Shown here: one piece after another, positions 11,810 to 61,990 of the stretch
Numbering within the stretch: the first letter of the stretch is position 1
Layout of the letters: every line of letters begins with the position of its first letter
DNA from: Lentisphaerae bacterium WC36
GTDB lineage: Bacteria; Verrucomicrobiota; Lentisphaeria; Victivallales; SZUA-371
NCBI GenBank assembly: GCA_020683205.1
Contig: CP085689.1
Coordinates: forward strand, 1,550,001 to 1,614,000
Direction: 5' to 3'
Length of the DNA stretch: 64,000 nt
The notes under the pieces: model-generated
The model's input: the letters and a program-made list of their open reading frames with translations, nothing else
Told to the model about the DNA's origin: nothing
Databases searched by the model: none
Made by a program: the position numbers and the translations under genes

Positions 11810-12388
11810 CTAAAACGGAATATCATCTTCAATATCGCTTGAATCAAACACATCAGGCATTGCAGGAGCTCCGCCTTTTGTCGCAAAATTTTGATTACCG
11901 AATGGACCAGAATTATTACTACTATTTTGTTGATTCGAAAACCCATTATTATTATCTGCGAATTGATTAGAGTTTGCTTGTTGCTGATTATTATTAAACT
12001 GGTTATTACTATAAGTATTATCAGCATTTACATTAGTTCCACTTGAAGCATTATTTCTATTACTCATAAATTGAACACGCTCTGCAACGACACGTAATCT
12101 TGAACGATTTTGTCCACTCTCACGATCTTGCCATTGATCTAACTGTAAACGACCTTCAACAAAAATAGCAGACCCTTTTTCCAAATAACGGCCACATGAT
12201 TCTGCTTGTTTTCCCCAAACAACAACATCAACAAAACAGGTCTCATCACGCTGTTCATTATTGCTTGATGTAAAACGACGATTTATTGCTAAACCCAAAT
12301 CACACACAGCCATTCCACTTGGCGTATGCCTTAAAGAAGGTTCTCTTGTTAGATTACCCATTAATAACACTTTATTTAAAGATGCCAT
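11810..12388 (-). CDS. ssb: single-stranded DNA-binding protein
   Basis: 192 residues. OB fold at about 1-110 (MASLNKVLLMGNLTREPSLR, FVDVVVWGKQAE, IFVEGRLQLDQW). A long Asn/Gln-rich linker follows (about 113-165), then the conserved acidic interaction tip DSSDIEDDIPF that recruits replication and repair proteins. Sits between rpsF and rpsR. The same DDIPF tip occurs in the phage DUF669 protein at 59.2-59.9 kb. Confidence 0.96.
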   Translation of the reverse strand: MASLNKVLLMGNLTREPSLRHTPSGMAVCDLGLAINRRFTSSNNEQRDETCFVDVVVWGKQAESCGRYLEKGSAIFVEGRLQLDQWQDRESGQNRSRLRVVAERVQFMSNRNNASSGTNVNADNTYSNNQFNNNQQQANSNQFADNNNGFSNQQNSSNNSGPFGNQNFATKGGAPAMPDVFDSSDIEDDIPF

Positions 12389-24513: not shown

Positions 24514-26523
24514 ATGATTAAAGAGCAGTTAAAAAAAGTTTTTGGATTTCATGAATTCCGTGACAATCAGCAGCAAATTATTGAGACGATATTGGATAAC
24601 AAGGATGTTTTTGCCGTAATGCCTACAGGTGGTGGTAAATCATTATGTTACCAACTACCTGCACTGATTAAAGAAGGATTATGCGTTGTGATTAGTCCAT
24701 TAATTTCATTGATGAAAGATCAAGTTGTTAATGCAGCAAATAATGGCATTAAAGCAACATTTTTAAATAGTTCGATGACAATTTCGGAAGTCAAAGACAC
24801 CTATTTTCAACTTGAAAATAATTTACTGGACCTGCTTTATATTTCTCCAGAAAGATTAGTTAGCGAAGGTTTTATAGAGAAACTCAAAACATATCCAATT
24901 TCAATGTTTGCAATTGACGAAGCGCACTGTATTTCAGAGTGGGGTCATGACTTTCGTAGCGATTATCTGAACCTAAAATTGATAAAGGAAAATTTCCAAC
25001 ATATTCCAATTGCTGCATTTACTGCTACTGCAACTAAAAAAGTCCAAAGCGACATAATTGAACGACTTAAATTAACAACCCCACTGATAGTACGTGCTTC
25101 ATTCAATCGAGAAAATTTATTTTACTCAATAGCGATGAAGAGTCGTGAAATTAATGAGCAAATTTATGACTATATTATAGATCACAAAAACGACCCAATA
25201 ATTGTTTACCGCACTAGCCGCAAAGCTGTAGAAGAATGTACTGAATATTTACGGCAAAAAAATATCAAAGCTTTACCTTATCACGCAGGATTACCCAAAA
25301 AAGAGCGTGATGAAAATCAGCAAAAATTTAGTTTTGATGAAATCCAAGTCATTGTTGCTACTGTTGCTTTTGGTATGGGAATTGATAAATCAAACGTCCG
25401 TCATGTTGTTCATGGAGACCTACCTAAAAGCATGGAAAATTATTATCAAGAAACTGGACGCGCTGGACGTGATGGGAGCCCTGCATTTTGCCACCTGTTT
25501 TATAGTAAAGCTGATATTAGAAAATTAATGTTTTTTATTGAAGAACTAAGGGAAACTAATCCTGACGAATATGCAATTGCCAAAAGTAAAATATTTGCTA
25601 TGAATAACTTTGCGGAAAACTTTAACTGCCGCCGCAAAAAAATTTTAAATTACTTTAATGAAAAATACCCACATAAAAATTGTCAAAGTTGCGATGTTTG
25701 CAATAGCATGACTCGAAAAAATGATGAAAGCATTAATGCTATGAAGTTTCTTTCAGCAGTAGCTAGAACTAATGGTTGTGCTTCCTTAGATGCAATTATT
25801 GATATTTTATTGGGCAATCACAGCAACGAAGTTACTATTAATGGCTTCAATGATTTACCTACATTTGGGAAAGGATCTAACAACAATCGTGATTTTTGGA
25901 TTGACTTTTATCATGAATTAACCACACAAAATATTATCCAATACAATGAAATTGAATCAAAATTTAGAATTTCTAAAAATGGAGGTGAAATTTTATTTGG
26001 TCGCCAAAAATTTTATACGATTACAACAGTAAAACGTGATGAAAATGAAATCGTTCGTAAGCAACAAAATAGCTTTTTTACAAAAAAATCACAAAATTTT
26101 TCAAGTTTTACTGATGATAATTTTTCACAACGCATCTATAGTGATAAATACGACTCGCTAGATAACGATTTTACTAGTTCATATCGATATAAGCGTAGTC
26201 TCAGCAATAATAGTGATGTTTCAAAAAATCATAAAAATAATAAAAAACAATATTTTAATAATCCAAGGCATGACGAACTTTTTAATCAATTAAAACGATT
26301 AAGGTACAATTTGGCTCAACAACAAAATGTTCCTCCATACGTTGTTTTTAATGATAAATCGTTACATGAAATGGCTGAAAAAATTCCACAAAGAAAACAT
26401 GAATTCTTACAAATCAATGGTGTAAATTCGGTCAAAATGGATAAATATAGTAAACAATTTTTAGCAGAAATTAGAAGTTTTTTGATTAAAAACAGCTCTT
26501 TAGTCAAAAAAATCAAGGAATAG
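24514..26523 (+). CDS. recQ: ATP-dependent DNA helicase RecQ
   Basis: 669 residues. Walker A PTGGGKS (37-43), DEAH box AIDEAHCISEWGHDFR (about 136-151), motif VI YYQETGRAGRDG, and a RecQ zinc site (CRRKKILNYF... CQSCDVC, about 370-395). A winged-helix region follows, then a low-complexity linker (about 510-585), then an HRDC domain (HDELFNQLKRLRYNLAQ, about 588-660). It resolves recombination and repair intermediates. No clear ribosome site is visible. It is downstream of the exonuclease, possibly in an operon with it and the next gene. Confidence 0.95.
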   Translation: MIKEQLKKVFGFHEFRDNQQQIIETILDNKDVFAVMPTGGGKSLCYQLPALIKEGLCVVISPLISLMKDQVVNAANNGIKATFLNSSMTISEVKDTYFQLENNLLDLLYISPERLVSEGFIEKLKTYPISMFAIDEAHCISEWGHDFRSDYLNLKLIKENFQHIPIAAFTATATKKVQSDIIERLKLTTPLIVRASFNRENLFYSIAMKSREINEQIYDYIIDHKNDPIIVYRTSRKAVEECTEYLRQKNIKALPYHAGLPKKERDENQQKFSFDEIQVIVATVAFGMGIDKSNVRHVVHGDLPKSMENYYQETGRAGRDGSPAFCHLFYSKADIRKLMFFIEELRETNPDEYAIAKSKIFAMNNFAENFNCRRKKILNYFNEKYPHKNCQSCDVCNSMTRKNDESINAMKFLSAVARTNGCASLDAIIDILLGNHSNEVTINGFNDLPTFGKGSNNNRDFWIDFYHELTTQNIIQYNEIESKFRISKNGGEILFGRQKFYTITTVKRDENEIVRKQQNSFFTKKSQNFSSFTDDNFSQRIYSDKYDSLDNDFTSSYRYKRSLSNNSDVSKNHKNNKKQYFNNPRHDELFNQLKRLRYNLAQQQNVPPYVVFNDKSLHEMAEKIPQRKHEFLQINGVNSVKMDKYSKQFLAEIRSFLIKNSSLVKKIKE

Positions 26524-51826: not shown

Positions 51827-51913
51827 GCCAGGATGGCGGAATTGGCAGACGCAACGGACTTAAAATCCGTCGGCCGCAAGGCTGTGAGGGTTCAAGTCCC
51901 TCTCCTGGTACCA
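51827..51913 (+). tRNA. tRNA-Leu (UAA)
   Basis: Acceptor GCCAGGA / TCCTGGT, long variable arm as in class II tRNAs, anticodon loop CTTAAAA with anticodon UAA, T loop GGTTCAAGTCC, and encoded CCA. Confidence 0.96.
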
Positions 51914-51975
51914 TTTTATTTTATACCTAAGCAGTGCGTCTTAGGATTTTTTTTACCTCAATAATTAAACATATT

Positions 51976-52052
<77 letters not shown>

Positions 52053-52162: not shown

Positions 52163-53284
52163 TTAAAATGTTTTCTTTAAGTCGATTACGTTATGATAAT
52201 CACCGTAATCTTTTGTTTGTTGAATAGAACTATGACCAACAACAGTTCCTATTTGTTCATCGCTAAATCCTGCTCTTCTAAGTTTATCAACAAAACGATG
52301 ACGGAAACAGTGAAAAGATTTATCTTTAATATCTATTGCTTTTAATTTCTTCATAAATACATGATTCAAGCTACTTCCTGCGTGTCTTGTTCCTTTCTTA
52401 TATTTATCAACTTTATCAGGGAAAAAGTATCCCCTTGCATCTACTGGAGCATCTAGCAAGAATTTTAATTCATCTATTAACTGAATATAAACAAATCGTC
52501 CAGTGTGACGAGTCTTTGCAGGTTGAAGTTTTATAACATAATCTTTTTTATCAAAATCTAGAGTTATATTTTCTTTTTTTAGATGAACTACGTCAATAAA
52601 GCGTAATCCTGTATAAGCCGCAATCTTACAAATATCAAGCCAATCTCCTGTAAATTTACTTAGAATTAGCTTTAACTCATCATCTGAAAAAGGAATTTTG
52701 ACACTAGCATCTTCTTCCTGATTTCTTCTTTTAATGCCGTAAAATGGATTATTTAAACCAACTCCTTTAAATACACCTGAAAGGTTTACTAGATATTTAT
52801 TATAAGTACTAGCTTTAACCTTCAATGACGACATAAATTTTACAGCATCATCAAAATCAATTTGTTCAATATCTACTACGTTATTATTTTCTAAAAATTT
52901 TACGAATTTATCAAAGTGCTTTTCTCTTTGATACTGCACTGTGGTAGTTATCTTATTATACCCTTCCGTTAATTTATAGCGTTCAAAAAGACCTTCAATA
53001 GATTGCTTGCGCTCTTTTTGACGACTTTTTTTGACGTTTGATAGTAAATTAATATCTTGAGTATGTTTTAATTGCCTACACGCTTCAGCTTCATAAATTA
53101 ACGCCTTAACTTCTAATTTTTTAGCTTCAACGCGACAATTGGCGATAAAAATTTTTATATCTTTGATTTGTTGGCGTTTCTCTTTAATCGTTCCAACTAA
53201 TGGGAAATTAACCTTATTAACTTTATTCGTTGCAGGGTCAGTTATATTAACTCGATATTGAGTTGTTTCAGCTGTAATTTTCAT
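52163..53284 (-). CDS. int: tyrosine recombinase, prophage integrase
   Basis: 373 residues from ATG 53284-53282, chosen because TTGGAGA lies 9 bases upstream; the open frame to 53371 would overlap the nuclease gene. N-terminal arm-binding region, SAM-like core-binding domain (about 100-190), then the catalytic domain: AYTGLRFIDVVHL (Arg), HCFRHRFVDKLRRAGF (His-x-x-Arg), VVGHSSIQQTKDYGDY (Gly-His and the nucleophile Tyr). It inserts and excises the element at tRNA-Val. Confidence 0.92.
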   Translation of the reverse strand: MKITAETTQYRVNITDPATNKVNKVNFPLVGTIKEKRQQIKDIKIFIANCRVEAKKLEVKALIYEAEACRQLKHTQDINLLSNVKKSRQKERKQSIEGLFERYKLTEGYNKITTTVQYQREKHFDKFVKFLENNNVVDIEQIDFDDAVKFMSSLKVKASTYNKYLVNLSGVFKGVGLNNPFYGIKRRNQEEDASVKIPFSDDELKLILSKFTGDWLDICKIAAYTGLRFIDVVHLKKENITLDFDKKDYVIKLQPAKTRHTGRFVYIQLIDELKFLLDAPVDARGYFFPDKVDKYKKGTRHAGSSLNHVFMKKLKAIDIKDKSFHCFRHRFVDKLRRAGFSDEQIGTVVGHSSIQQTKDYGDYHNVIDLKKTF

Positions 53285-53309
53285 GATATTTTCTCCAAAA
53301 AAATAAAAA

Positions 53310-53837
53310 CTACAAATTTTTAATACGGTATTTTTCGGGGTTGGTTGGATTCGCTTGACTCCATAATCCAAGTTGACTATTTTTAGCCGTTTTTTCGGCT
53401 TCTGCTAGGTCTTTTTCGTTTCTAGCATATCTTTTGTAGTGCCACGCTAACCCTGCCCTAATCTGTTCCAAATTAACGTACGTTTTAACTCCGTGTTTTT
53501 TTGTATAAACTTTTGCTATTAATCGCCCGTATTTATCCGTTTCAATTGGTTCAATAATCACTCTTTTATAGCGAATTAACCTAAAAAGATTATCTTTTGA
53601 CTCTTTACCAAACGGTTGTTTTTTTTCGGGTGCGTCAATTCCAAATAACCTAACTTGAATATCAACACCTTTAGATTTAGCCTTAAATGAATCACCATCA
53701 TAAACGTATGCAACAATCGCTTCATAAGGTGCGTTATCATTTTTTACAATAATTTGTGGCTCATTTTTTGAATCATTTTGACAGCCTGCGAAAAACAAGC
53801 CGACCGTTATAAATACTGCAATTAGTAAATTTTTCAC
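53310..53837 (-). CDS. thermonuclease-like (SNase) lipoprotein, prophage-borne
   Basis: 175 residues from GTG 53837-53835, preceded by GGAG at 7 bases; the open frame to 53867 is not needed. A signal peptide ends in LFFAGC (lipobox). SNase fold: VAYVYDGDSFKAKS (Ca-site Asp), VRLFGIDAPEKKQPFGKES (Arg and Glu), DKYGRLIAKVY (second Arg), RAGLAWHYKRYA. Staphylococcal-nuclease-like enzymes cut DNA and RNA. The lipid anchor places it outside the cytoplasm. It sits between the repressor and integrase, so it is probably expressed in the lysogen. Confidence 0.88.
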   Translation of the reverse strand: MKNLLIAVFITVGLFFAGCQNDSKNEPQIIVKNDNAPYEAIVAYVYDGDSFKAKSKGVDIQVRLFGIDAPEKKQPFGKESKDNLFRLIRYKRVIIEPIETDKYGRLIAKVYTKKHGVKTYVNLEQIRAGLAWHYKRYARNEKDLAEAEKTAKNSQLGLWSQANPTNPEKYRIKNL

Positions 53838-55149: not shown

Positions 55150-55207
55150 GACACATTGTATTATTGTCATAACATTTCAAATAATACACACAATAATGCA
55201 ATGTGTC
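55150..55207 (+). other. 18-bp hairpin before the Nmad5-like gene
   Basis: GACACATTGTATTATTGT pairs with ACAATAATGCAATGTGTC over 18 positions; the single mismatch (T159 with G198) is a G-U pair in RNA. The 22-base loop is AT-rich. It ends 4 bases before the ribosome-site region of the gene starting at 55229, so it could control translation, RNA processing or binding of a protein. Confidence 0.65.
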
Positions 55208-55228
55208 AATATTTTTGGAGAAAATATT

Positions 55229-55885
55229 ATGACACAACAAACAAAAACTGAAATCAAATTCAAAAATAAACGTCTTTCACAAGATGATAAACGCACGATT
55301 GTTTATAAATGTATTCATTTTGCAATTAAAGAAGATGAAACAAAGATGCTCGAAATGAGAAACCAATTATGGGATGATATTTATAATTTTCTCGTTCCAG
55401 CAAACGTTTTGAAAAAGATTAAAGAAATCCCTAAAAAATTCATCAAATATAAAAAGAGATGCAATTTGGATTTTGTTATCAATGTGCAAAATGTAGACTT
55501 TAATAGACCTCAATATCGTATTAAATCTACTAAAGATAATCATCTAGATTACTCTTTACGTGAAGAAATTCCTTATTTTGCAAGCACTGCTAATCGAAGT
55601 TCCGATTATTTCAGTTGGGGTGATGTTAAGCCACTTCATAAAAAACTTGCTAAATTTTTTAAACTTGAAGATAAAATTGAAACTAAAAAAAATGAAGTTG
55701 AAACAGAAGCATATCGAATTTTAGCGTCGTGTAACACCACCAAACAGTTAGTTGAGTTATGGAGTGAAGCCGTTAATTTCTTACCCGATTATATTATCGA
55801 AAATCGTTCAACAAATAGCGAAAATTTACCCGCAGTAATCAACACAACTAAATTAAATAATTTACTGGGGGTGCAAAATGGCTAA
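55229..55885 (+). CDS. Nmad5-like phage protein
   Basis: 218 residues from ATG 55229, which follows TTGGAGAAA; an upstream ATG at 55196 lies inside the hairpin and is rejected. The N-terminal KRLSQDDKRTIVYKCIHFA and the C-terminal CNTTKQLVELWSEAVNFLP fit the nucleotide-modification-associated Nmad5 family of phages (unknown biochemistry, sometimes near DNA-modifying genes). Followed with an 8-base overlap by the next gene. Confidence 0.5.
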   Translation: MTQQTKTEIKFKNKRLSQDDKRTIVYKCIHFAIKEDETKMLEMRNQLWDDIYNFLVPANVLKKIKEIPKKFIKYKKRCNLDFVINVQNVDFNRPQYRIKSTKDNHLDYSLREEIPYFASTANRSSDYFSWGDVKPLHKKLAKFFKLEDKIETKKNEVETEAYRILASCNTTKQLVELWSEAVNFLPDYIIENRSTNSENLPAVINTTKLNNLLGVQNG

Positions 55886-56562: not shown

Positions 56563-57861
56563 ATGAACCAAGTTACAATAAATTCACTCGAAATCGAAAA
56601 TGTTAAACGCATCAAAGCTATTAAAATCGCCTTTAATAATAAAAACCTCACTGTTATCGGCGGTAATAATGCTCAAGGTAAAACAACAGTACTTGATACA
56701 ATTTGTTGGGCGTTGGGCGGTAATAAATTTGCACCTAGCAATCCAAAACGTGACGGATCTGTTGTTGACCCAAGTATAAAATTAACTCTCTCAAATGGCT
56801 TGATTGTTGAAAGAAAAGGGAAAAACTCCAGTTTAAAAGTGACCGACCCATCAGGCAACAAAGGAGGTCAACAATTATTAAACTCTTTTGTTGAAGAATT
56901 AGCTCTTAATCTGCCGAAATTTATGAACGCTAATAATAAAGAAAAAGCGAATATTTTATTAAGAACGCTTGGAATTGAAAGCGAATTAAGAGCACTTGAC
57001 GACCAAGAGCAAAAAATTTATAACGAACGGCATTTAATCGGTCAAGATTACGAGCGTAAACGCAAATATGCGGAAGAATTACCACATCATGAGAATGTTC
57101 CACCAGCAATTATTACTGCTAATGAATTAATCGAGCAACAGCAAAAAATATTACTAGTAAATGCCGAAAATGCCAAACAACGGACTAATTTAGCTAATAA
57201 TCAAGAAAAATTAGTGACAACTCAAAACAAAATTACTTATCTTCAAGAGCAATTAAAAGCTGAGCAAGAACTTGAACAATCACTCTTACATAACATTGAA
57301 ATTGGGCAAAAAACAGTTGAAGAGTTACAAGATCAATCAACCGAAGCTATAGCACAACAAATTGAACAAATCGACACAACTAATACTAAAATTAGAGCAA
57401 ATCTTGATAAAGATAAAGCTTTAATTGACGCTGAAAATCTCAAAAAAGATTACGACGATAAAACAACATTGATTCAGGCAATCAGAGATCAGCGAATGGA
57501 ATTGCTTAAAAATGCTAATTTACCGCTGGAAGGCTTATTAATCGACAATGGCGAATTAGTTTATAATTCTCAAAAATGGGATTGTATGAGTAGTTCAGAA
57601 CAAATGATTGTCGCAACAGCAATCGTCAAAAGCTTAAATCCTGAATGTGGATTTGTTTTGCTCGATAAATTAGAGCAGTTAGACAAAAATAGTTTAGACC
57701 AATTTGCAAAATATCTTGAAGAACAAGGACTGCAAGTTATTGCAACAAGAGTAGCAAATGATGATAGCTGCACAATTATTATCGATGATGGCGAAGTTAT
57801 TCAAGATAACACACCCAAAAAAGCAATTAGCAATAATAAATTTGCGGGGTTAGAATTATGA
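56563..57861 (+). CDS. SMC/RecF-like AAA ATPase of the phage replication module
   Basis: 432 residues. N-terminal NSLEIENVKRIKAIKIAF strand-helix and Walker A VIGGNNAQGKTTVLD (about 31-45). A coiled-coil middle (about 140-285) rich in Glu/Lys/Gln. Then the signature region CMSSSEQMIVATAIV and Walker B GFVLLDKLEQLD (about 364-375). The residue after the Walker B Asp is Lys rather than the usual catalytic Glu. The layout resembles phage SbcC/RecF-like ATPases placed beside single-strand annealing proteins. Overlaps the next gene by 4 bases (ATGA). Confidence 0.75.
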   Translation: MNQVTINSLEIENVKRIKAIKIAFNNKNLTVIGGNNAQGKTTVLDTICWALGGNKFAPSNPKRDGSVVDPSIKLTLSNGLIVERKGKNSSLKVTDPSGNKGGQQLLNSFVEELALNLPKFMNANNKEKANILLRTLGIESELRALDDQEQKIYNERHLIGQDYERKRKYAEELPHHENVPPAIITANELIEQQQKILLVNAENAKQRTNLANNQEKLVTTQNKITYLQEQLKAEQELEQSLLHNIEIGQKTVEELQDQSTEAIAQQIEQIDTTNTKIRANLDKDKALIDAENLKKDYDDKTTLIQAIRDQRMELLKNANLPLEGLLIDNGELVYNSQKWDCMSSSEQMIVATAIVKSLNPECGFVLLDKLEQLDKNSLDQFAKYLEEQGLQVIATRVANDDSCTIIIDDGEVIQDNTPKKAISNNKFAGLEL

Positions 57862-58133
57862 CAACTAATCAAATGATTGCAAAAGCAATTGAAGATAAAG
57901 CAATAGTTTTAGCACGCAATGAAATAGAAAAGCGCAAATATGACAAAACTCTAAAACTTCAAGAATTTTGTAGATTAAATGATATTTCAAAAGAGGAACT
58001 TAAAAATATCATTGACGAAATTATCAACCCTACCAAAACAGAACCACCAAAAGAGTTAATCGAGGCTAAAAAACAAGAGGTTATTGACCAAATGATAAAG
58101 AATTTAGGAGGAACATATAATGTTGCAAATTAA
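57858..58133 (+). CDS. 91-residue phage protein, unknown
   Basis: Helical and charged; no known domain. Starts in an ATGA overlap with the ATPase gene and overlaps the Sak4-like gene by 14 bases, so it is coupled to both and may be a partner of the recombination proteins. Confidence 0.55.
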   Translation: MTTNQMIAKAIEDKAIVLARNEIEKRKYDKTLKLQEFCRLNDISKEELKNIIDEIINPTKTEPPKELIEAKKQEVIDQMIKNLGGTYNVAN

Positions 58134-59184
58134 TCGCGGAAAAATTCAAAAAGCACAACGAGTAATAGTTTATGGACCTGAGGGCATTGGCAAAACCTCA
58201 ATAGCAAGTAAATTTCCTAACCCAGTTTTTATTGATACAGAAGGTGGCTCTTATCATCTTGATGTAGCACGAACCCCTTCCCCTGATTCGTGGGAAATGT
58301 TAAAACATATTTTGGGCGAATTAATCATCGACAACCAAGGATTTCAGACAGTTGTTATTGATACAGCAGATTGGGCGGAAAGATTATGTATTCAACATAT
58401 TTGTGCTGTTGGTGATGAAAAAGGACCTAATAAAACAGGACTTGAAAATTTTGGATTTGGAAAAGGTTACGTTTATTTAGAAGAAGAATTTGGACGACTT
58501 CTTGATACTTTAAGTCGCTTAATCGACAAAAATGTTAATGTTGTTCTATTAGCTCATTCGCACCTTTCACGCTTTGAACAGCCTGACGAAATCGGTGCTT
58601 ATGACCGTTATGAATTGAAAATGACAAAAAAAACTAGACCATTAATTAAAGAATGGGCTGACATGGTTTTATTCTGCAATTATAAAACATTCGTTCAAGA
58701 AATTGACGGCAAGAAAAAAGCCAGTGGCGGGCAGCGTGTGATGTATTCGAGTCATTGCCCTAGTTGGGATGCAAAAAATCGTCACAATCTACCTTATGAA
58801 ATGCCATTAGATTATTCACAAATTGCACACACTATTCCAGTTTTTGATAATAATCCTCAACAACAGCCTAAAGTTGCAGACACTGCACCAACGGCTGAGC
58901 AGGCAATGCAAGAAGCAACCGTTGAAGATGAATTAAACGCTGCAACTCCGCCAGATGATTTTAAAGGTCAATCTCAAGTTGAAAATAAAAACTATCCTCA
59001 ACTTTATAGTTTAATGGAAGCAAACGGCATTACGGAGCAAGAAATTAAAGAAGTAGTAGCTAATTTTGGGATTTATCCAATTGACACGCCAATTGAGCAG
59101 TACGACGAAAATTTAGTAAATGGTCGGTTAATTCCAAAGTTTGAAGCAGTAAAAGATGCAATTATCAACAATAGAAATAAATAA
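58120..59184 (+). CDS. Sak4-like RecA-fold ATPase (AAA_24)
   Basis: 354 residues. Walker A VYGPEGIGKTSIASKFP (about 14-31), FIDTEGGSYHLDV, Walker B-like VVIDTADWAE, VVLLAHSHLSRF with the His-containing motif, and KKTRPLIKEWADMVLFCNYKT. This matches the AAA_24/Sak4 phage group, RecA-like single-strand annealing/recombination ATPases. The C-terminal 130 residues are low-complexity, then NYPQLYSLMEANGITEQEIKEVV. GGAGGAA precedes the ATG. Acts with the DUF669 protein downstream. Confidence 0.8.
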   Translation: MLQINRGKIQKAQRVIVYGPEGIGKTSIASKFPNPVFIDTEGGSYHLDVARTPSPDSWEMLKHILGELIIDNQGFQTVVIDTADWAERLCIQHICAVGDEKGPNKTGLENFGFGKGYVYLEEEFGRLLDTLSRLIDKNVNVVLLAHSHLSRFEQPDEIGAYDRYELKMTKKTRPLIKEWADMVLFCNYKTFVQEIDGKKKASGGQRVMYSSHCPSWDAKNRHNLPYEMPLDYSQIAHTIPVFDNNPQQQPKVADTAPTAEQAMQEATVEDELNAATPPDDFKGQSQVENKNYPQLYSLMEANGITEQEIKEVVANFGIYPIDTPIEQYDENLVNGRLIPKFEAVKDAIINNRNK

Positions 59185-59206: not shown

Positions 59207-59875
59207 ATGGATAATTACAACAACAATAATTTTAATCAAGACGGAAATTTCAATAACACAAATTTTAATAATCAAAATCAAGTAGGTGGATTTAATAATC
59301 AGGCTGCTAACCCAGACCCAAACAATGAATGGAATTTTAATATTACATCTGATGAAATGGATTCAGACTTTGTTTTATTACCTCCTGGAGATTATCAATA
59401 CACAATTACTAATTTTGAAAAAGCACGCCATACGCCAAAAGGTCCAGGGAAAATTGACCGACCATGTCCTAAAGTTATTTTACATCTTCGTATTAAATCA
59501 GCAGAAGGTAAAGATGTTAATGTGAAATCTAATTTATTTATTCATCCCGCTTGTGCGTTCGGAATCGGTGCATTTTTCCGTTCTATTGGTCATATTCAAA
59601 AAGGAGAAGATCTTAATCCTGGAAGTGTCGACTGGAATAGAGTTATCGGCTCAACTGGAACGTGTAAAATTAAACATCGTGAATATAACAATAATAAATA
59701 CAATGAAGTTGATCGTTTCCTTGAACCAAGTGATAATTCATCTCAGCAAAATATGCAGGGTAGTAGATTTATGGCAAATGATATGCCTCCTAGTACTCAA
59801 AATGCAACCAATATGCAGAATCAACAACAAGTACCACAAGGTGGTGGAGATATTACCGATGATATTCCATTTTAA
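59207..59875 (+). CDS. DUF669 phage SSB-like protein with DDIPF tip
   Basis: 222 residues. N-terminal Asn/Gln-rich head (1-45), then the DUF669 core: FVLLPPGDYQYTITNFEKARH (about 63-83), KVILHLRIKSAEGKDVNVK, FGIGAFFRSIGHIQKGE, VDWNRVIGSTGTCKIK. A disordered linker ends in GGGDITDDIPF. The last residues match the host SSB tip (SDIEDDIPF), so it probably recruits the same host partners while coating phage single-stranded DNA. AAGGAAACG precedes the ATG. Confidence 0.75.
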   Translation: MDNYNNNNFNQDGNFNNTNFNNQNQVGGFNNQAANPDPNNEWNFNITSDEMDSDFVLLPPGDYQYTITNFEKARHTPKGPGKIDRPCPKVILHLRIKSAEGKDVNVKSNLFIHPACAFGIGAFFRSIGHIQKGEDLNPGSVDWNRVIGSTGTCKIKHREYNNNKYNEVDRFLEPSDNSSQQNMQGSRFMANDMPPSTQNATNMQNQQQVPQGGGDITDDIPF

Positions 59876-59937: not shown

Positions 59938-59949
59938 ATGGAGAAAATT

Positions 59950-61542
59950 ATGAAATTACGACCATATCAGCAGCAAGCGATGGAAAACGTGTTAGCAGAG
60001 TGGGAGAATGTCGACCGCACACTGTTAGTTCTTCCAACAGGAACAGGGAAAACCATTGTTTTTGCTAAAACTACTGAAATTATTGTAGGACAACGCAATG
60101 CTAGAGTTTTAATTTTAGCACATCGTGGTGAACTTTTAGAACAAGCAAGCGATAAAATTTTAACTGCTACTGGCTTAAAATGTGCAACGGAAAAAGCAGA
60201 AGAAACCGCATTAGGTTCATTTTTTAGAATTACCGTTGGTTCAGTTCAAACTTTAATGCGTGAAAAAAGACTAAAACAATTCGCTAAAGATTATTACACA
60301 CACATTATTATTGATGAAGCTCACCACGCATTAAGTACGAGTTATACCAATATTTTAGATTATTTTAGCTCAGCTAAAGTTTTAGGAGTAACGGCAACGC
60401 CTGACCGTGGCGATAAAAAAGACTTAGGAGCGGTATTTGATTCTTTAGCATACGAATATGCACTCCCCCAAGCAATTAAGGACGGTTATTTATGTAAAAT
60501 TAAAGCTCTAACATTACCTGTTAATATTGATCTTAATGGAATCGGCACTCAAGCAGGAGATTTTAAAAGTGCAGAACTTGACGACCGCTTAACGCCATAC
60601 TTAAAAGATATTGCTAAACAAATGACTGAGCACTGTTTAAACCGAAAAACGGTTATTTTTTTACCTTTAATTGCGACAAGTCAAAAAATGTGTGAAATTC
60701 TTAATGGTTTGGGATTTAATGCGGCAGAAGTTAACGGGAATAGCCCTGATAGAAAACAAATTTTAGAAGATTTTGACGCAGGAAAATATAATGTGTTATG
60801 CAATTCCATGCTTTTAACTGAGGGTTGGGATTGTCCAAGTGTTGATTGTATTGTGTGTTTAAGACCGACCAAAGTTCGCAGTCTTTATGCTCAAATCATA
60901 GGTCGTGGAACTCGTTTATATCCTGGAAAAAGCGAAGTACTACTTCTAGATTTCTTATGGAATATTGACCGCCATGAACTTTGCCGCCCTGCACATTTAA
61001 TCGCAGAGAACCGCGAAGTCGCACAAAAAATGACAGAAAAAATAGAAGAAGCAACAGTTATTCCTCTTGATTTAGAATTTGTTGAAGAAGACGCCAAAAA
61101 TGAAGTAGCTATTGAACGAGAAAATAAACTTGCTGATCAATTAGCAGAAATGAAAAAACGTAAGCGCCAAAGTGTCGATATTTTACAGTACGAAATGAGT
61201 ATTCAAGCTGAGGACTTAATGGACTATACTCCTGCCTTCAATCATGAAATGGCACCTGCAAGTCAAAAACAAAAGACAATGTTAGAAAAATTTGGGATCT
61301 TTCCCGACGATGTTCCAAACGCAGGAAAGGCTTCACTCTTAATCGAACGTTTACAAAAACGCCAACTTGCAGGAATGACCACTCCTAAACAGATTCGGTT
61401 TCTTGAAAAGAAAGGTTTCAACCACGTGGGAAATTGGCAATTTAACGACGCTAATAACTTAATTCGTCGCATCAGTGCCAATAACTGGAGAATTCCTAAT
61501 ACTATTGATCCAAAAACATACAATCCTAACGAAGGAGTATAA
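59950..61542 (+). CDS. SF2 DEAD/DEAH-box helicase, phage
   Basis: 530 residues from ATG 59950, set by GGAGAA. Motif I VLPTGTGKT (about 29-37), DEAH box IIIDEAHHALS (about 117-127), motif III GVTATPDRGDK, motif V TEGWDCPSVDCIV, motif VI QIIGRGTRLY. A C-terminal domain follows with repeated segments around TPKQIRFLEKKGF. It is the usual ATP-driven helicase of phage replication modules, next to RusA and the primase-helicase. It probably opens DNA for recombination-dependent replication. Confidence 0.9.
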   Translation: MKLRPYQQQAMENVLAEWENVDRTLLVLPTGTGKTIVFAKTTEIIVGQRNARVLILAHRGELLEQASDKILTATGLKCATEKAEETALGSFFRITVGSVQTLMREKRLKQFAKDYYTHIIIDEAHHALSTSYTNILDYFSSAKVLGVTATPDRGDKKDLGAVFDSLAYEYALPQAIKDGYLCKIKALTLPVNIDLNGIGTQAGDFKSAELDDRLTPYLKDIAKQMTEHCLNRKTVIFLPLIATSQKMCEILNGLGFNAAEVNGNSPDRKQILEDFDAGKYNVLCNSMLLTEGWDCPSVDCIVCLRPTKVRSLYAQIIGRGTRLYPGKSEVLLLDFLWNIDRHELCRPAHLIAENREVAQKMTEKIEEATVIPLDLEFVEEDAKNEVAIERENKLADQLAEMKKRKRQSVDILQYEMSIQAEDLMDYTPAFNHEMAPASQKQKTMLEKFGIFPDDVPNAGKASLLIERLQKRQLAGMTTPKQIRFLEKKGFNHVGNWQFNDANNLIRRISANNWRIPNTIDPKTYNPNEGV

Positions 61543-61546
61543 AATC

Positions 61547-61990
61547 ATGACTATTGCACATTCTACAATTTATAATAAAACTTTCATTTTTGAGGGCACT
61601 CCAAAAGCTGTTCAGTCATTCCGCTTCACTCGCTCTGGGCGAAAATATCAGCCTAAAGAAATTGGAGATTGGAAAAATTTAATTAAATTACAGGCTAAAG
61701 AACAAATTACTAGTAAAGTTATGCCAAGCAGTAAAGCCTTAAAAATTGAAGTTGAATTTATCTTTCCTCCCCTTAAAAGTTGGAGCAAAAAACGTTTAGA
61801 AGAATTAAAAAACGGTGCAACATTCTTCAAAACAACTAAGCCTGATTTGACCGATAACTTAATGAAAGGTTTTATTGATGCTTTAAGTGGCATTTTATGG
61901 GATTGTGATCAGCAAATTTGTGTGGTGCAAAGTGTCAAAAAATATGGTTTAAAGGCAATGACCACTTTAAAAATTACGGAGCTTGACTAA
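61547..61990 (+). CDS. rusA: RusA-family Holliday junction resolvase
   Basis: 147 residues from ATG 61547, preceded by GGAG; the open frame from 61475 overlaps the helicase and is not the start. IFEGTPKAVQSFRFT at the N-terminus and the acidic core KPDLTDNLMKGFIDALSG plus ILWDCDQQICVV, where the Asp residues bind metal. It resolves Holliday junctions formed by phage recombination. The next gene starts 2 bases later. Confidence 0.85.
   Translation: MTIAHSTIYNKTFIFEGTPKAVQSFRFTRSGRKYQPKEIGDWKNLIKLQAKEQITSKVMPSSKALKIEVEFIFPPLKSWSKKRLEELKNGATFFKTTKPDLTDNLMKGFIDALSGILWDCDQQICVVQSVKKYGLKAMTTLKITELD

Follow-up and report, generated by a model that had tools for sequence, protein, structure and literature searches.

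A DUF669-related prophage protein with the C-terminal tip of the host SSB, a probable docking peptide of a Sak4 recombination module

A prophage in the genome of Lentisphaerae bacterium WC36 encodes a putative ssDNA-binding protein of 222 aa that ends in DDIPF, as does the single-stranded DNA-binding protein (SSB) of its host. We propose that this ending probably serves the phage recombination module as a docking tip, to which partners of the host SSB may bind too. The features on which the argument draws are listed below, with positions referring to the window, that is, the whole 64,000-nucleotide stretch of DNA analysed.

11810-12388, minus strand: host chromosomal SSB, ending SSDIEDDIPF (tip at 11813-11836); family match and translation
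24514-26523, plus strand: host RecQ helicase with RQC and HRDC domains; profile match
52163-53371, minus strand: phage integrase at the prophage boundary, assigned to the tyrosine recombinases by inspection alone
55196-55885: prophage early gene with an Nmad5 nucleotide-modification-associated domain
56563-57861, plus strand: AAA_23/SbcC-like ATPase of the recombination module (phrog_1499); profile matches
58120-59184, plus strand: Sak4-like single-strand annealing protein (AAA_24, phrog_124), 354 aa, ending NNRNK with no PF tip
59207-59875, plus strand: putative phage ssDNA-binding protein, phrog_2698/divergent DUF669, 222 aa; profile matches and AlphaFold2 model
59849-59875, plus strand: C-terminal tip DITDDIPF plus stop, a putative SSB-like docking peptide; translation and ending survey
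59938-61542, plus strand: phage-encoded RadD-like SF2 helicase (phrog_16; PDB 6jde, E 4e-38); profile matches
61475-61990, plus strand: RusA-like Holliday junction resolvase; profile matches

Identity and setting of the phage protein

The protein encoded at 59207-59875 (plus strand) has the C-terminal end QVPQGGGDITDDIPF. Its residues 37-203 match the phrog_2698 profile with an E value of 2.2e-41, and two relatives in that group, from Enterococcus phage EFC-1 and Faecalibacterium phage FP_Lugh, are annotated as DUF669. The Pfam DUF669 profile itself scores 15.5 bits (E 0.019), below its gathering cut-off of 21, and we therefore file the protein under phrog_2698 as a divergent DUF669 relative and not as a member of the Pfam family. 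Thus, the name DUF669 given to it in an earlier note on this DNA, made from the letters alone, holds through its relatives but not by the Pfam score. No Pfam family was matched at E 0.001, and at E 10 a weak DUF669 hit was the only one. An identity as canonical bacterial SSB (PF00436) was considered and rejected, the SSB domain giving no sequence match in the Pfam search.

An AlphaFold2 model, built from 62 sequences, predicts a core at residues about 50-180 (pLDDT about 95, mostly above 90) with the order strand-strand-strand-helix-strand-strand, and two disordered, N/Q-rich tails, the C-terminal one long. Among solved structures the best fold match to this predicted core comes from plasmid pCF10, whose PrgE protein gives a Foldseek E of 7e-6 and a VIA Z of 13.5. 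The second is the C-terminal domain of RadD, with a middling Z of 6.8; the latter domain is also the best DALI hit of PrgE according to its authors (PMC11137577). The best matches in a viral structure library include DUF669 proteins. On this model, the core is confidently predicted to be an OB-fold. PrgE is a non-canonical ssDNA-binding OB protein and the closest solved fold, but it is only 14-16% identical to the phage protein, is encoded in a conjugation operon and has an N-terminal tail that contributes to oligomerisation (PMC11137577). For the 222-aa protein we infer ssDNA binding from the family, by analogy with phage HK620 (PMC5928155).

The integrase-like ORF adjoins tRNA-Leu and tRNA-Val genes (51827-52052), and from there the prophage runs through the Nmad5 protein, the SbcC-like ATPase, Sak4, the 222-aa protein, the RadD-like helicase and RusA. 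Sak4, which matches AAA_24 at E 1.6e-59 and phrog_124 at E 1.1e-69, is the likely partner of the 222-aa protein; no solved structure was matched by its sequence at E 0.01. Beyond the window come an AAA_25 ATPase and then ORFs that by inspection resemble phage structural genes. Further along the prophage, two minus-strand ORFs of 660 and 254 aa (L222:7898-10723) follow the plus-strand run and are possible cargo or defence genes.

The gene order is a known one. Phage FP_Lugh is annotated with the same succession of ATPase, Sak4, DUF669 and helicase, and EFC-1 has ATPase, Sak4 and DUF669, then two inserted genes before the helicase. The phrog_2698 proteins of streptococcal, enterococcal and Faecalibacterium phages, such as Javan311, EFC-1 and FP_Lugh, have cores about 35-45% identical to that of the 222-aa protein, and in these phages sak4 lies upstream while a phage helicase gene follows, at once or, in EFC-1, after a few genes. 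Their tips differ, however, being GGPF, PGAF or QGAF and not DDIPF, and the Bacillota hosts examined for this group have SSB tips DDLPF. Since such GxF relatives keep the gene order, DDIPF is not required for the partnership in the phrog_2698 family.

A tip shared with the host SSB

The host SSB (11810-12388, minus strand) lies in an rpsF-ssb-rplI-dnaB neighbourhood, the gene order being read by inspection, and its C-terminal end is FDSSDIEDDIPF. Seven of the last eight residues are common to the phage protein (DITDDIPF) and this SSB (DIEDDIPF), the shared pattern being DI-x-DDIPF. The resemblance extends to the C-terminal linkers: N and Q make up 38% of that of the phage protein and 40% of that of the SSB, whereas the folded cores contain 10-12%. 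Both the common DDIPF and the common style of Asn/Gln-rich linker, as claimed in the earlier note, are thus borne out. With an OB-fold predicted for the phage protein, the two would also have that core in common, but the cores have no detected sequence relationship, and the N-terminal tail of the phage protein (54% N+Q) has no equivalent on the host SSB. A second host SSB (C1:2340346-2340630, in a 158-codon open frame) has the tip SKDYEDDIPF; it is a paralogue, possibly carried by another mobile element.

Endings were surveyed in 3461 distinct closed ORFs of at least 100 aa, from all DNA gathered up to that stage. A C-terminus of the form [DEN][DE][ILVM]PF was confined to SSBs and DUF669-type proteins, apart from two cases in Sak4, and therefore chance does not account for the tip. 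It might alternatively have been copied from the end of the host ssb gene by recent recombination, and in effect 20 of the last 24 nucleotides agree between the two genes. However, the encoded residues together with the codon usage of the host lead one to expect 18.6 matches (probability of 20 or more, 0.25), and extended DNA similarity to ssb is absent. As the agreement is no greater than codon usage predicts, there is no sign of copied tip DNA, and with every other examined class of ORF also lacking endings of the DDIPF kind, an origin by chance or by recent copying is very improbable.

Candidate partners of the tip

The closest precedent is phage HK620, whose DUF669 protein (HkaK), encoded beside sak4, is a tetrameric SSB (Hutinet et al. 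2018; PMC5928155). When the six C-terminal residues of HkaK, NDYPPF, were removed, Sak4 failed to load on ssDNA coated with the SSB and recombineering fell about 10-fold; the same authors already remarked that NDYPPF resembles DDDIPF, the tip of the SSB of E. coli (PMC5928155). The idea that a DUF669 phage SSB carries an SSB-like tip is therefore already in print, and the partner demonstrated for it is the phage's own Sak4. In a 2021 survey, sak4 was commonly found upstream of SSB genes, DUF669 genes included (PMC8093625). Among our own matches sak4 accompanies DUF669-type genes in 464 of 506, as judged by a distance rule and with some of the loci gathered through a Sak4 query. The window protein is thus a further example of the known DUF669-Sak4 arrangement and no new system. 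In the literature consulted, mostly non-subscription, nothing closer to a host-mimicking phage SSB tip than the HK620 work was found.

By analogy with HK620, the OB-fold core of the 222-aa protein would bind ssDNA, the flexible N/Q-rich linker would carry DDIPF as a terminal docking peptide, and this peptide would bring Sak4, encoded directly upstream, onto the protein-coated ssDNA. The occurrence of acidic PF tips in several divergent DUF669 groups, beside Sak4 proteins with no PF ending, is consistent with such a partnership. The two systems share a DUF669-type phage SSB next to sak4 and an acidic C-terminal tail ending in Pro-Phe, but NDYPPF is no copy of the host tip whereas DDIPF equals it. 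Furthermore, the HK620 mechanism is carried over a wide gap, given that its Sak4 has 227 aa against 354 aa in the window and that the two sequences are only remotely related. As the tip is nearly identical to that of the host SSB, host SSB-tip readers such as RecQ and PriA could conceivably bind it as well.

The stronger proposal, made in the earlier note, is that DDIPF would recruit RecQ, PriA and other host SSB partners to phage ssDNA, so that the element borrows them. On this view, selection for such recruitment would have shaped the likeness. RecQ and PriA belong to known classes of SSB-tip-binding proteins (RecQ in E. coli), and the host encodes both, its RecQ with the RQC domain; RecO_C (PF02565) was not detected in the whole host genome, with 9 of 14 control genomes positive, and the host may have no recognisable RecO. 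The proposal is also favoured by the specificity of the tip, its place on an OB-fold protein of a ssDNA-binding family, the presence of DDIPF on both host SSBs and the seven of eight final residues shared with the main one. Matching pairs of DUF669 and SSB tips occur in some genomes of the phylum, namely EDEIPF/DDEIPF in genus g57, DEDVPF/DEDVPF in family f45 and DDDIPF/DDDIPF in genome G243. Genus g57 appears to be Akkermansia-like, its DUF669-type protein having 93-97% protein matches to Akkermansia phages. The comparison with each host's SSB suggested in that note nevertheless gave no clear agreement beyond chance: across nine lineages, grouped by hand, the residue before PF agrees in seven, with 5.9 expected by shuffling (p about 0.4). 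In an initial 18 genomes the DUF669 tip seemed strikingly to follow that of the host in every detail, but this faded in the larger sample and the idea was discarded. In several Bacillota genomes with SSB DDLPF the homologues have endings such as PGAF or PGQF (GxF), order-mates of the host with SSB EDDIPF carry PPWARK-tipped DUF669 proteins, and the last three residues of the tip are PPF in HK620 and APF in Vibrio phage. In addition, the tested HK620 tip serves its own Sak4, and the hydrophobic-PF tip is a minority one. On balance the proposal is supported in part, and selected mimicry of the host seems to us rather unlikely.

Two further readings need no host partner. The tip might dock the phage RadD-like helicase encoded just downstream, in the way that the E. 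coli SSB tip docks RadD, an SSB-tip reader that the phage enzyme matches at E 4e-38. In E. coli RadD the tip is bound by a pocket of Arg21, Arg49 and Arg145 (PMC10238739). Among 204 phage RadD-like helicases, however, position 21 is mostly N, K, D, E or Q, position 49 is Gly and position 145 falls in a gap, with no telling difference between tip classes at these positions. Because the arginines are not conserved, docking through the known RadD pocket is not supported, and we hold the helicase to be an improbable partner. Equally little probability attaches to an acidic tail that works in cis and has no dedicated partner: it would shield the surface with which the protein itself binds DNA and so modulate the affinity for ssDNA. 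Acidic tails of several phage SSBs do act in cis on their DNA-binding face, and the long disordered C-terminal tail of the AlphaFold2 model would suit such a role, but the precise hydrophobic-Pro-Phe end, common to SSBs and other DUF669 proteins, would be left unexplained. Docking within the phage recombination module, with Sak4 as the likely partner, thus remains our preferred reading.

Tip classes in DUF669-Sak4 modules

The search for the tip among DUF669 proteins, another suggestion of the earlier note, showed it on a minority of them, so that the objection which that note set against its own idea, a scarcity of the tip among homologues, applies in part. The DUF669-type and Sak4 proteins were collected by similarity searches from selected seeds. 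The 342 distinct DUF669-type proteins comprise 152 with a GxF ending, 104 with hydrophobic-PF, 30 with a PW tip and 56 others; within the window protein's own family (226 proteins), the first two classes number 152 and 53. The hydrophobic-PF tips are acidic, with a mean net charge of -2.6 over the last ten residues. In 44 genomes of the same phylum an acidic hydrophobic-PF tip was found on a DUF669-type protein in 16 (19 of 59 proteins), the remaining endings being PPWARK-like, GxF-like or none. DUF669 tips of gammaproteobacterial phages also vary (NDYPPF, SDLPF, DDAPF). A scan of viral contigs with the window protein as sole query gave no matches, a scan of genome contigs for homologues gave 11 loci only, and tblastn with the DUF669 query of the f45 type found no phage record.

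The PPWARK or PW-x-x class of DUF669 tips occurs at loci L228-L239, L253 and L254 and in phages Seurat, PaMx25 and Mcat25, and many genomes of the host's order have a PPWARK-type DUF669 tip although their SSB ends DDIPF. In Akkermansia phage Chantilly (L319:4001-4552), a DUF669-type protein is publicly annotated as 'DNA polymerase', probably a misannotation.

The distribution of tips within modules follows a further pattern. In 322 distinct DUF669-Sak4 pairs (viral contigs L056-L484), hydrophobic-PF tips are present on 108 DUF669 proteins and 115 Sak4 proteins, never on both members of a pair, against about 39 such pairs expected; the Fisher p values count related phages as independent and are not to be taken at face value, and tip classes and patterns were picked after the data had been seen. 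In GxF modules the C-terminus of Sak4 is often a helix-like stretch capped by hydrophobic-PF (MIKDNRILPF, RKDLPF and once DIDDIPF), and in DUF669-PF modules Sak4 halts after the helix-like stretch, as does the window Sak4 (DAIINNRNK). The HK620 pair also conforms. Because modules with neither tip occur, the rule is 'at most one' and not 'exactly one'. A quick Sak4 tree shows five changes of the DUF669 tip, one of them false through a loose pattern (L147, tip GRF). With only about four switches, the exclusivity lies beyond a phylogenetic test and no sign test could attain significance. One switch, L372, lies inside the GxF clade (DUF669 GWNPDGLPF, Sak4 ending KTKRGNK), and L473 is likely a reversal. 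On the plus strand of L184, a 385-codon ORF that starts near base 892 encodes a Sak4 ending VDIDDIPF, so that here the annealase bears an acidic tip of SSB type, beside a DUF669 neighbour ending WQSGRF.

One might tentatively suppose that each Sak4-DUF669 module bears at most one docking peptide, moved by evolution between the partners, acidic on the SSB-like protein and neutral on Sak4. If so, the peptide would connect the module with a third partner held in common, or the polarity of docking between Sak4 and DUF669 would have flipped. SSB-tip pockets that read the terminal carboxylate are not expected to accept residues beyond the Phe. The hydrophobic-PF tips of Sak4 are neutral in charge, unlike the acidic ones of DUF669, and many copies of Sak4 run on for a few residues past the Phe; for both reasons the tips of the two proteins may not be equivalent.

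Recombineering makes use of phage annealases together with the SSB-like protein of the phage, and it is the C-terminal tip that determines the partners brought together on ssDNA. In the survey the DUF669 tip proved to be a changeable module, of acidic xPF, GxF and PPW types, and so the choice of partner is open to simple tip swaps. The window offers a naturally occurring instance of a phage tip that equals that of the host.
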